Shown: piece by piece, positions 9,211 through 22,457 of the stretch
How the letters are laid out: each line of letters begins with the position of its first letter
How positions within the stretch are numbered: the stretch's first letter is position 1
Origin: a virus
Strand: one strand, 5' to 3'
DNA: 22,457 nucleotides
IMG/VR virus record: IMGVR_UViG_3300034108_001199
Location: 1-22,457 of that record
Translations under genes and position numbers: made by a program
Notes under the pieces: generated by a model
Database searches by the model: none
What the model saw: only the letters and a program-made list of their open reading frames with translations
Told to the model about the DNA's origin: nothing

Positions 9211-10449
9211 ATGAGTAAGATTGCCATAATCATGGCACGTGGCATCGAAGGTTGTGGTGTTACAAAATATACAATCGAGCAGGTGAAATGGCTCAAATCC
9301 AACGGTTACGATACAAAGGTTTATGCTGCAAAAGACAAAAACTTTTCTCGTAAGAAATCTCATGATCTTGGGGTTGTTGATTTATTCAAATTTGAAGACG
9401 TAACCCAAGTCGATCGAATGATCGAAGAGTGCAATAATTCTGATTATATTTTTGTCAATTCTTTACCTTCTATCACTAATGGTAGAGGTAAAGGCTCCAG
9501 TTCAGGCGCAATCGATAACTGGATTAAAGCACTTAAGGCATTTAAGAAGCCAGTAATTCTTATCCAACACGATCATACTATATATTCAATTAAGAGAAAC
9601 GCAGCATTAGATGAAGCGATTGATGCTGCTAATCTTATTTTTGTTCACTCTCGAACGAATGACTTTTCAGATTATGTAAAAGAAAAGAATAAGTCTAATT
9701 CGCTCATGTCTTTCTTCGGTGAAGAAGAAAGTACAAAAAAGATTCTTAGCTTTCAGCCCGGATTAGACTTTGATCTAAATAGAAAGCTTTATTGGAAAAA
9801 CATTAGTCTTCAGGACGATAAACACCACAAGTGGATTGGTCGATGCACCTCTTGGAAGGGCTTCGACTTAATGTTTGCATGGCACAATGGTTATCTTGCA
9901 CCAAACGGTTATTTAACAACGTTTGAGGGTATTGAAAAATCACCGGCATTTCTTGGATTTAAAGAAATCAGTGACTTTCACAATGCCATTTTAGAAAATC
10001 CAGAAGAAGCAGATTTATCTAATCAATATGGAGATAAAGCCACAGTGTTTGGTCCATATAAAAATGACGAACTACTTCATAGAATGTCAAGGTCTGGGTT
10101 TGGATATCAGTTGTCTGTTCTTAAACCAAGATATATCGAAAGATCGATTGAGTATACTCATTGTGAAGTTGCTTCGGTTGGAACAACGCCAGTCTTTCGA
10201 AAAGAATACGGAGATGTATGTATTCATCGCATAACTGGTGATCCTCTTTCTCAATCAAAAGATAATTTCACTGTTTGGCTATCAAAAGATAAAGCAAACA
10301 TGGAAGAAGCAATAAATACAATCACATCTCTTCGAGATCCTATTAAGCGTGATGAATGGCGGGAAGGTGCCTTTGAGTTCTATAAAGCACATCAAGACTC
10401 AAGTCATGTATTTGCTGACCTTATGAAAAATGTGAAAGATAATCTATGA
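9211..10449 (+). CDS. agt: DNA alpha-glucosyltransferase (T4 AGT-like)
   Basis: The enzyme transfers glucose from UDP-glucose in alpha linkage to the hydroxymethyl group of hmC in duplex DNA, protecting against restriction. The sequence aligns with T4 AGT along its length: IIMARGIEGCGVTKYTIEQ at the N-terminus, YAAKDKNFSR, VILIQHDHTIYSIKRN, FVHSRTNDF, NFQP-equivalent SFQPGLDF, WIGRCTSWKGFDLMFAWH, GIEKSPAFLG, RMSRSGFGYQLS, YIERSIEYTHCEVASVGT PVF and a C-terminal HQDSSH. Length is 412 against 400 in T4. It belongs to the GT-B-fold GT72 family. The ATG at 9211 follows GGGG at suitable spacing, and the stop overlaps the cytosine methyltransferase (ATGA), so both are translated together. Confidence 0.93.
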   Translation: MSKIAIIMARGIEGCGVTKYTIEQVKWLKSNGYDTKVYAAKDKNFSRKKSHDLGVVDLFKFEDVTQVDRMIEECNNSDYIFVNSLPSITNGRGKGSSSGAIDNWIKALKAFKKPVILIQHDHTIYSIKRNAALDEAIDAANLIFVHSRTNDFSDYVKEKNKSNSLMSFFGEEESTKKILSFQPGLDFDLNRKLYWKNISLQDDKHHKWIGRCTSWKGFDLMFAWHNGYLAPNGYLTTFEGIEKSPAFLGFKEISDFHNAILENPEEADLSNQYGDKATVFGPYKNDELLHRMSRSGFGYQLSVLKPRYIERSIEYTHCEVASVGTTPVFRKEYGDVCIHRITGDPLSQSKDNFTVWLSKDKANMEEAINTITSLRDPIKRDEWREGAFEFYKAHQDSSHVFADLMKNVKDNL

Positions 10450-11642
10450 CATTCACACATGCCTCGATAGTTCCTCTTATTGGAGGAGAAACAATAGGTG
10501 CCGAACGAGCATTTGGCCGCAGACCAGAGTTTATGATGTCATACAAAGCCTTTGCAGCCAATGATTCTCATATCGTACATCATTACAGCAATGATGTTCC
10601 GTACTACGTTTTAGATGACGGAGGAAATCCTCATACAAATGTAGATGTAATTTCTTCAGTTTGCCCATGCGCAGGACTCAGCCAACTATCTCACGGATTT
10701 GGTGATCACAACGAAAACAATAAGTGGCTTCGAATCACCACTGAGTATGTTCTAGGAGAACTAAAGCCAAAGGTTCTTTATGGTGAAAATGCTCCAGGCT
10801 TTGCCGGTAAGATTGGTGAAAACGTTCGCAATGAACTAAAGACGATTGGTAAGAAAAACGGATACACGATGTCGGTGTATCGTACCAAGACACTTCTTCA
10901 TGGCGGCCCGCAAATTCGTGAACGATCATTCTATTTCTTTTGGAGAGGTTCAAGAGTACCTCTTTTTCACTACTATAATAGGCCATACACTCGTATTGAA
11001 GATGTTTTGTCAAATGTATCTTCAAATTTTCAGATGGAATGCATAAATAAGAATACTCCATCGAAGTGGGATCTGTATTACAAGTTTGTTCTTGATCATA
11101 TTCATGGCGGCATCACTCATGCAGAGTTCTCAAAGATAGTTGAACCTCAGAACGTACGCAACTCAGATATCTTCTCATATATTGAACGTGCCGGATATGA
11201 CTACAAACAAGTAGGTAAGTGGATGGCAGAGCAAGGTTACGAAAAAGAAGTCGCTAAATGTGACTATCGTTATGAAAAGCTCAAGAATGGTGGAAACATC
11301 ATGCGGCGTGGTAGTATCATTCCTAAGAATTATATCGGTGCATTTGTTGGTCATTATCCAACGATGTTGACTCATCCTGTAGAAGATCGTTACATCACGT
11401 ATCGTGAAGCAATGACGATTATGGGACTTCCTTCTGACTTCGAGTTATTGAACCCAAAGAAGAGCGCAAACCACATTTGTCAAAATGTTCCGGTTCAAAC
11501 TGCAACCGATATTGCTACAGAAGTACTTGAATACTTAAATGGTAATCGAGTTATGATTGACACCGATTATATTTTGCAGTATAATCATACTCAAAAAGCA
11601 GAGTATGTAACGAAACAAAACACATTAGAAAGCTTTATATAA
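10446..11642 (+). CDS. C5-cytosine DNA methyltransferase
   Basis: A 398-residue C5-methyltransferase with the motifs in order: motif I PLIGGETIGAERAFG (10-24); motif IV SVCPCAGLS with P74 and the catalytic C75; motif VI GENAPGF (E114-N115); motif VIII PQIRERSFYFF (155 on); a divergent middle region (about 170-290) in the place of the target-recognition domain; motif IX-like ITYREAMTIMGLPSDF; and motif X NHICQNVPVQTATDI (342 on). All catalytic residues are intact, so it is probably active. Its ATG overlaps the glucosyltransferase stop. Because the phage makes hmC, the usual substrate should be scarce in its own DNA, which makes the role puzzling. Confidence 0.88.
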   Translation: MTFTHASIVPLIGGETIGAERAFGRRPEFMMSYKAFAANDSHIVHHYSNDVPYYVLDDGGNPHTNVDVISSVCPCAGLSQLSHGFGDHNENNKWLRITTEYVLGELKPKVLYGENAPGFAGKIGENVRNELKTIGKKNGYTMSVYRTKTLLHGGPQIRERSFYFFWRGSRVPLFHYYNRPYTRIEDVLSNVSSNFQMECINKNTPSKWDLYYKFVLDHIHGGITHAEFSKIVEPQNVRNSDIFSYIERAGYDYKQVGKWMAEQGYEKEVAKCDYRYEKLKNGGNIMRRGSIIPKNYIGAFVGHYPTMLTHPVEDRYITYREAMTIMGLPSDFELLNPKKSANHICQNVPVQTATDIATEVLEYLNGNRVMIDTDYILQYNHTQKAEYVTKQNTLESFI

Positions 11643-21044: not shown

Positions 21045-21297
21045 GTACTTTACAGATCGTAAGAGACACCTGGTGTGTATTCCTTATTCGATCGAAAATC
21101 TCCACAAAATGGCAGAAGATCTTAGCATTGGGCGACATTGGTTTCATAGAGGCTCTGGCCTAGATCATTATGATATTCCAAAGAAACGTATTGCTGAGAT
21201 TGAAGCTAGGTGTGTAATTATTACATCTAAAGAAATTCTAGAAATTATTAGAGGGACGTATGATAGAGCAAACGATTCTAGCGGGGATGATTTATAA
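21028..21297 (+). CDS. DUF4031-like protein between uvsX and 41 (89 aa)
   Basis: Starts at ATG 21028 inside the end of uvsX (17-base overlap) and ends 38 bases inside gene 41, a nested, coupled layout. The pattern is an N-terminal beta strand (VSIEYFTDRKRHLVCIPYSI), a helix (LHKMAEDLSIGRHWFHRG), then DHYDIPKKRIAEIEA and a final helix, which fits DUF4031, a small family of unknown function whose hallmark is an HYD/HY-T motif and a basic helix. An internal ATG a few residues upstream (21016) is possible. Confidence 0.78.
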   Translation: MKVSIEYFTDRKRHLVCIPYSIENLHKMAEDLSIGRHWFHRGSGLDHYDIPKKRIAEIEARCVIITSKEILEIIRGTYDRANDSSGDDL

Positions 21298-22457
21298 CGA
21301 AAGTTACATACGTAAAGTATTACCATTTCTAAAAGACGAATATTTCGACGATCAAAACGATAAATTTGTTTATACAACAATTAAGTCCTATATTGATAAA
21401 TATAATGGATTGCCTACAAAAACTGCTCTTCAAATTGCAATTAATGATGCAAATAATCTTAATGAAGAACGCTATGGGCAAATAATTGATCTTCTTGACA
21501 AAATAGAACACGATCCTAATACTGACATCAACTGGCTTGTTGATAAAACAGAAAAGTTTTGCCAAGACAAAGCAATTTATAATGCTGTAAGACAGTCTAT
21601 TCTTATTCTTGATGACAAGGTAAAGGATCTTGATAAGGGATCAATACCTAAGCTTTTAAGTGATGCGCTTGGCATTAGCTTTGATTCTAATGTTGGTCAC
21701 GATTTCCTTGAAAACTATGAAGAACGATTTGATTTCTATCACCGAATAGAAGAAAAACTTCAATTCGATCTTGAGTACTTTAATAAGATTACAAAAGGCG
21801 GTCTAAGTAAAAAATCTTTGTCAGTAGCTCTTGCAGGAACTGGGGTTGGAAAAACTTTATTCATGGCACATTGTGCAGCATCTTCTCTTATGTCAGGAAA
21901 AAACGTACTATACATCACACTTGAAATGGCTGAAGAGCGCATTGCAGAACGCATCGATGCCAATTTGCTTAACATCAATCTCGATGATCTCAGCCTAATT
22001 ACGCGTGATTCGTACCAAAAGAAAATTGATCGAGTTAAAAGTAGAACCACAGGTAAATTGATTGTTAAAGAATATCCTACTGGGTCAGCGAATGCAAATC
22101 ACTTTAGGCATCTACTCAATGAACTTCGTCTGAAAAAGAACTTTATTGCCGACATCATTTTTGTTGATTATTTAAACATTTGTGCAAGTTCGAGGATCAA
22201 AGGTGGAGCGAACGTAAACTCGTATACATTGATAAAGTCTATAGCAGAAGAGCTTAGGGGTTTAGCGATGGAGTTTAACGTTCCAGTTATGTCTGCTACA
22301 CAGACTACACGAAGCGGCTATGGCAATTCAGACGTAGAAATCACAGATACATCTGAATGTATTTGGGTGAACGAAAGTCTACAATTAAGAAATGGTAATG
22401 TTATACATTTACGCGATATTCAAGTAGGTGATCAAATCATCTCTAATGACGGTTACA
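21260..22457 (+). CDS. 41: Replicative DNA helicase gp41, 3' partial and intein-interrupted
   Basis: The DnaB-type hexameric helicase of the T4 primosome. From ATG 21260 (after GAGGG) the frame stays open to the edge. The N-terminal part matches T4 gp41 (WLVDKTEKF, ISFDSNVGHDFLENYEERF); Walker A is AGTGVGKT (residues 192-199), then NVLYITLEMAEERIAERIDAN, KEYPTGSANANHFRHLLNEL, Walker B IIFVDY (D303), SYTLIKSIAEELRGLA and the DNA-loop segment. After 366 residues, at DTSE, the homology stops and an intein begins. The rest of the helicase (in T4 about 110 residues beginning S-A-G-L-P) would follow downstream of the window. Function requires splicing. Strong family call. Confidence 0.93.
   Translation, partial: MIEQTILAGMIYNESYIRKVLPFLKDEYFDDQNDKFVYTTIKSYIDKYNGLPTKTALQIAINDANNLNEERYGQIIDLLDKIEHDPNTDINWLVDKTEKFCQDKAIYNAVRQSILILDDKVKDLDKGSIPKLLSDALGISFDSNVGHDFLENYEERFDFYHRIEEKLQFDLEYFNKITKGGLSKKSLSVALAGTGVGKTLFMAHCAASSLMSGKNVLYITLEMAEERIAERIDANLLNINLDDLSLITRDSYQKKIDRVKSRTTGKLIVKEYPTGSANANHFRHLLNELRLKKNFIADIIFVDYLNICASSRIKGGANVNSYTLIKSIAEELRGLAMEFNVPVMSATQTTRSGYGNSDVEITDTSECIWVNESLQLRNGNVIHLRDIQVGDQIISNDGY
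22358..22457 (+). other. N-terminal part of an intein inserted in gp41 at DTSE/(S)
   Basis: From C (22358) the in-frame sequence CIWVNESLQLRNGNV is foreign to helicases and fits intein block A; IQVGDQIISNDGY follows as in the Hint-domain pattern 'hh..GD.hh...G'. The last element resembles gp41-1-type inteins (IQVGD...SN.GY, from memory). 33 residues are visible. The cysteine would be nucleophile 1; the first C-extein residue should be the serine that follows DTSE in other gp41 proteins. The rest, including any endonuclease, is beyond the edge, so cis versus split cannot be told. Confidence 0.87.

Follow-up and report, generated by a model that had tools for sequence, protein, structure and literature searches.

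The gp41 helicase gene of a virus record ends in a probable split intein at a DTSE/S insertion site

The virus record IMGVR_UViG_3300034108_001199, analyzed here over its entire length of 22,457 bases (the window), ends within a gene for a T4-type gp41 replicative helicase, and we confirmed that this gene is interrupted in frame at 22358 by the N-terminal fragment (N-fragment) of an intein. In the reading that we favor, with a probability of roughly 0.88, the window ends in a split class 1-like intein inserted between the Glu and the Ser of DTSE/SFGLP (the slash marks the insertion point), and gp41 is encoded by a fractured gene with an endonuclease gene between its halves, the products of which are spliced to intact gp41. 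Polypeptide 1 would consist of helicase residues 1-366 and the intein N-fragment, and polypeptide 2 of a helical-hairpin leader, the C-terminal fragment (C-fragment) of the intein, and the rest of the helicase, while a free-standing homing endonuclease gene of the Vsr/EDxHD type would lie between the two. The two intein fragments would associate, with the leader hairpin possibly helping the right fragments to pair. Cys1 would then attack the upstream peptide bond, the N-extein would be transferred to Ser+1, and the terminal Asn would cyclize with release of intact gp41. At the DNA level, the endonuclease would cut intein-free gp41 alleles of co-infecting phages, and repair would copy the element together with some of the flanking gp41 DNA.

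Results

The open reading frame (ORF) at 21260-22457 codes for 399 residues and runs off the window end. Its residues 1-366 match the DnaB-like replicative helicase family PHROG 19, and intein-free relatives are 83% identical to it in this part (Table 1); the T4 gp41 structures 8DTP and 8DUE match one intein-free relative, L002, with an E value of 1e-105. The tblastn matches of intein-free relatives to the ORF end at about residue 368. Across the junction these relatives read QTTRSGYGNSDVEITDTSE/SFGLPATADF, and after TDTSE the 83%-identical relatives go on with SFGLPATADFMF. In the window, ...ACATCTGAA (to 22357) is followed by TGTATTTGG (from 22358), which gives the protein TDTSE/CIWVNESLQLRNGNVIHLRDIQVGDQIISNDGY. 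Comparison with the intein-free relatives, which read TDTSE/SFGLP, thus shows an exact insertion with Ser as the +1 residue. Cys1 of the intein, at 22358-22360, is present in all aligned members, and a two-sequence profile of the N-fragment matches the structure of the gp41-1 intein (6QAZ) with an E value of 1.8e-16. The contig stops 100 nt past the junction, so that 33 intein codons are visible. L088, L083, and L084 have an identical or similar N-fragment at the same junction, which is therefore not a chance product. An exact search for the window's own junction allele found it in no other viral contig. The earlier note, made from the letters of the window alone, had proposed gp41 homology up to DTSE followed directly by an intein, and these data bear it out.

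TABLE 1 Features at the end of the window
Feature	Position	Strand	Evidence
N-extein, T4-type gp41 replicative helicase residues 1-366, to TDTSE	21260..22357	+	PHROG 19, E value 6e-103; 83% identical relatives
Intein N-fragment, first 33 codons (Cys1 through ...SNDGY), truncated at the end of the window	22358..22457	+	100 of 100 nt identical to L088; profile match to 6QAZ
Window end (127 nt) that matches L088 exactly	22331..22457	+	Base-by-base comparison

The family of inteins at the DTSE/S site is common in viral contigs, among which we found about 30 distinct N-fragments and 25 distinct C-fragment ends at this site; when the N-fragment profile was run against bacterial and archaeal genomes, no relative was detected. 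All N-fragments with a readable end stop after 88-115 residues, i.e., the intein is always split, and no contiguous intein was among the members found at the site. Complete C-fragments consist of a conserved helical leader of ~50 residues followed by a Hint part of 35 residues. The loci are of two types: those with an endonuclease ORF have about 1290-1430 bp between the N-fragment stop and the C-fragment junction, and those without one (L094, L104, L106, L113, L114, L116, and L128) have 260-446 bp. Since the leader is found in both types, it is not an endonuclease remnant. To obtain a single-chain model using AlphaFold2, we took the L114 pair, in which the halves are separated in frame by a TAA alone; this codon was read as Gln for folding purposes, which implies no read-through. 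The model, with a mean predicted local distance difference test score of 79.9, has a Hint fold and a two-helix hairpin for the leader, and it matches gp41-1 (6QAZ) with a Z score of 21.9 and a root mean square deviation of 1.3 over 126 residues.

The gp41-1 intein is thus the closest solved fold, and it shares with the DTSE/S family the host gene, the class 1 split architecture, and a block B of the form SxxH. The two nevertheless differ in several respects. As claimed earlier, the insertion sites are different, DTSE/S versus TRSGY/S, although the distance by which DTSE/S lies further downstream is 12 residues and not the 13 first counted. In a maximum-likelihood tree of N-fragments, the two sites are apart with support of 97/93. 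The DTSE/S family therefore forms a clade of its own; its C-fragments carry the ~50-residue helical leader and end in KN instead of HN, and it lacks the block-F His. Thus, neither the TRSGY insertion point, nor the THN end, nor the clade of the gp41-1 group is found in the DTSE/S family. The junctions of gp41-1 (TRSGY/S) and gp41-8 (SQLNR/S) both differ from DTSE/S. The gp41-8 intein is likewise a split intein in a gp41-like helicase; its C-fragment apparently resembles that of the DTSE/S family in sequence but ends in THN. The Ssp DnaB intein occupies a neighboring position in a DnaB-type helicase and has a Hint fold (1MI8; Z score of 19.2), but it is unsplit and splices in cis. A HMMER alignment with DnaB pairs DTSE/SFG with IKD/SGG, which places what is presumably the Ssp DnaB site two residues further downstream, in agreement with the offset first suggested for it.

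Fractured genes as such are a known kind of locus. The abstract of Dassa et al. 2009 reportedly describes split inteins with a free-standing endonuclease between the halves, in phage-like metagenomic genes, along with a Vsr-related endonuclease family; the loci studied here are alike in that a split intein divides a gene into two parts, between which lies a free-standing gene for a Vsr-like endonuclease. The title of that work is cited in PMC10343443. It is possible, although we lean against it, that the 26 fractured loci of Dassa et al. 2009 already include the DTSE/S site with its intein family and that we have added only further members, as the abundance of the family in viral contigs and the content of that abstract would allow. 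The literature searched, which did not cover Dassa et al. 2009, names gp41-1 and gp41-8 but no DTSE/S site, and the junctions of those two inteins differ from it. In the same literature, with the same limit, we found neither the Lys-Asn end, the leader, nor an arrangement of two inteins as described below, and it held no full list of gp41 insertion points. The features of the DTSE/S family set it apart from gp41-1.

The complete arrangement can be read in relatives of the window. L004, L082, L088, and L103 are stretches of one contig, IMGVR_UViG_3300042992_002239, which is identical to the window in 100 of 100 nt of the intein. In L088, the N-fragment of 89 residues ends with a stop at 1113 and is followed by a middle ORF of 349 residues (1189-2238) and a downstream ORF (2222-2845) that starts with MIADYDLYLK and continues to ...ETIDISVSGDNLFYCNGILTKN/SFGLPATADFMF, i.e., the C-fragment and then the C-extein SFGLPATADF. 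The N-fragment, endonuclease ORF, and C-fragment follow in the same order in L083, and also in L084, whose N-fragment is 79% identical and whose middle ORF is split into two frames (in L084:6873-7921, the endonuclease ORF is frameshifted while both intein halves are intact). What had been predicted for the sequence downstream of the window is largely found in the near-identical relatives, which have an SxxH that resembles block B, a stop codon that comes 89 residues after Cys1, as expected of a split intein, and a C-extein of the form S-x-G-L-P following the C-fragment. The expected HN/S end, by comparison, did not hold, as every C-fragment at the site ends KN/S.

The fractured-gene layout, with two host-gene ORFs carrying intein fragments and an endonuclease ORF between them, is thus found in L088, L083, and many others, while the window holds its first part alone. 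The identity to L088 argues strongly that the window phage continues downstream in the same manner. If its intein were instead contiguous or without an endonuclease, the downstream half would be unlike that of L088. The seven endonuclease-free loci provide a precedent for this, yet we consider it unlikely, as the 100 visible nt equal L088 and L083, both of which have the endonuclease, and no member found at the site is contiguous.

To characterize the middle ORF, we built a profile from twelve aligned sequences. Its best sequence match was Vsr, a weak one (E value of 0.025) in which the DF...H...W pattern is aligned, and no Pfam family scored above its cut-off against the endonuclease ORF. In a predicted structure, the last 130 residues matched I-Bth0305I (Z score of 10.2) and Vsr (Z score of 9.5) over 95-109 residues; the tied top match, 3HRL (Z score of 10.3), is an uncharacterized endonuclease-like protein. 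The likeness to the EDxHD-type enzymes I-Bth0305I and Vsr thus lies in the predicted fold of the C-terminal domain, while the middle ORF differs from them in a long, helical N-terminal part that gave no clear match and in the weakness of the sequence similarity. On the basis of the modeled fold, the middle ORF is a putative homing endonuclease of the Vsr/EDxHD type, which fits the Vsr-like homing endonucleases reportedly associated with fractured genes.

Cys1, SxxH, the block-F Asp, the terminal Asn, and Ser+1 are conserved across the DTSE/S family. SxxH forms block B in all full-length relatives, and the C-terminal Asn followed by Ser (N/S) is present in 25 of 25 distinct C-fragments; both lie past the window edge. 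The SxxH variant of block B has also been described for gp41-1 (PMC12245125). A class 3 intein was rejected, because Cys1 is present, F:4 is Asp, and the Cys of the block-F text FYCN is not at F:4. These features support the assignment of the element as a split class 1-like intein for which splicing is predicted.

Three observations weigh against this assignment. The window itself contains only 33 intein codons, the downstream half lying beyond its edge. The penultimate His is replaced by Lys in 25 of 25 distinct C-fragments, which end in TKN, compared with a THN end in 9 of 9 C-fragments from the gp41-1 site in the same set. Finally, the usual block-F His (F:13 in the nomenclature of PMC4031507) is missing throughout the family, with block F reading GDNLFYCN (GDQLFYAN in the cultured phage described below) versus GNHLFYAN or GDHLFYAN at the gp41-1 site. 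In gp41-1, the THN motif is reported to be important for rapid cleavage at the C terminus, while the Npu DnaE intein ends in ASN (PMC12245125), so that the Lys-Asn end is of interest and splicing is still possible. In class 1 inteins generally, the penultimate His in block G is usual but not obligatory.

The two halves might also be made and assemble non-covalently into a working helicase with no splicing at all, as reported for certain phage genes that are split by inserted endonucleases, e.g., Aeh1 nrdA; phage enzymes that are split and yet work in this way are described in PMC2988022, and the absence of the two histidines that usually help the reaction would agree with this. We give this possibility little weight. 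Cys1, the block-F Asp, the terminal Asn, and Ser+1 are kept across loci that otherwise differ widely, a pattern that would be difficult to account for if splicing were not under selection, and each half would retain about 90 extra residues at a helicase motif that is conserved. Moreover, inteins without the penultimate His can splice, as the cases cited in PMC4031507 and the ASN end of Npu DnaE illustrate.

In two loci, L116 and L093 (the latter on the same contig as L129), a gp41-1-type intein at TRSGY/S is accompanied by a second intein at DTSE/S, and the helicase is encoded in three pieces. The middle polypeptide consists of C-fragment 1, a 12-residue extein (SSSDPELTDTSE in L116 and SNSDLGLEDTSE in L093), and N-fragment 2. 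L116 and L093 represent independent cases, since their inteins differ and the second endonuclease is present in L093 alone. Searches with the middle ORFs of L116 and L093 found no third double locus. Six of nine candidate doubles (L096, L100, L102, L107, L120, and L187) proved to be single-site loci in which gp41 text had been misread, and YGN, FGN, YSN, and FSN were rejected as intein ends because they are gp41 text (SGYGN/SD...). As wrong pairing would lose the 12 residues, we predict that the two inteins should be mutually selective. Neighboring inteins of one helicase gene that affect each other's homing (PMC10643990) are a useful comparison. Separately, we noted that an ORF inside the intein at the gp41-1 site (L116:1529-2293 and L093:2783-3559) appears by eye to start like a GIY-YIG endonuclease, while Pfam gave a NUMOD3 motif alone and in L116 only; L028 has an HNH/NUMOD3 ORF at the gp41-1 site instead.

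We tentatively propose, as a possibility that may prove not to hold, that the DTSE/S inteins are an uncharacterized gp41 split-intein family, distinguished by a conserved helical leader on the C-fragment and by a Lys-Asn end where His-Asn is usual. In some phages this family stands beside a gp41-1-type split intein; there, two trans-splicing reactions, each selective for its own partners, would join three polypeptides into the helicase, with a 12-residue extein in the middle. The two reactions could be kept apart by the leader and by the altered active site.

The DTSE/S intein also occurs in a cultured phage, Shigella phage ESh36 (ON528746; Tequatrovirus), which is listed in PMC9686686; the word intein is absent from the main text of that paper, and the GenBank record is marked UNVERIFIED. 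Its locus reads SDIAE/C..., a hypothetical ORF, and a C-fragment ending TKN/SAGLPATADF, and the three ORFs are annotated as "DNA primase/helicase," "hypothetical protein," and "DNA primase/helicase." Among 1366 phage records that match its C-terminal ORF, the intein part is covered by ESh36 alone, and downstream of the intein, its helicase part shows 100% identity to that of intein-free coliphages.

A base-by-base comparison of L083, L088, and the window revealed a mosaic flank. Between -728 and -307 relative to the junction, L083 has the sequence of the window, with 70 sites that differ from L088. Between -280 and the junction, it has the sequence of L088 throughout, with 38 sites that differ from the window, and the agreement with L088 extends through the intein and beyond (3480 of 3480 nt). 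The simplest reading of this pattern would be a co-conversion tract of 280-307 bp, and the mosaic suggests recent homing. At the switch point, 26 nt are common to L083, L088, and the window, a stretch too short to readily mislead an assembler run with common k-mer sizes, although an assembly error may have occurred. In the window, the same intein has a flank of its own that reaches to within 28 nt of the junction (the last difference from L088 is at -28), and its shared end of 127 nt would be explained by an assembler with k = 127 halting where two gp41 alleles enter one intein. That the window is an assembly chimera, with a helicase and an intein from different genomes joined wrongly at about 22358, would account for a contig ending in 127 nt common to another contig but is very improbable, as about 30 distinct loci and a cultured phage share this junction, the identity begins 27 nt inside the helicase and not at the junction, and, if k = 127, the window allele and the intein are already linked within the k-mer that precedes the branch.

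Two further observations concern other genes. The UvsX (RecA-type) genes of related contigs also bear inteins (L028:1-1781, L096:1528-3838, and L102:721): in L028, a split intein (VSGG/C...HN/TG) has an HNH/NUMOD3 ORF between its halves, and in L096, a split intein (TYQTM/C...HN/S) is followed 12 residues on by a contiguous mini-intein (ISGG/C...HN/TG). At 9211-11642 of the window, a gene for a T4-type DNA alpha-glucosyltransferase (Pfam AGT; E value of 4e-69) adjoins a gene for a C-5 cytosine DNA methylase, and this pair suggests that cytosine in the phage DNA is glucosylated or hypermodified in some other way.

Discussion

Natural split inteins such as gp41-1 are among the main tools for protein ligation, and there is a demand for pairs without cross-reactivity. 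The DTSE/S family, which has an unusual C-terminal motif and a conserved leader hairpin and stands beside a gp41-1-type intein in one protein in L093 and L116, is a natural test of such selectivity. With ESh36 and the intein-free coliphages that have an identical downstream helicase, splicing, homing, and the cost to the phage are open to laboratory crosses. The mosaic of alleles around the intein of the window suggests that homing takes place in natural phage populations.
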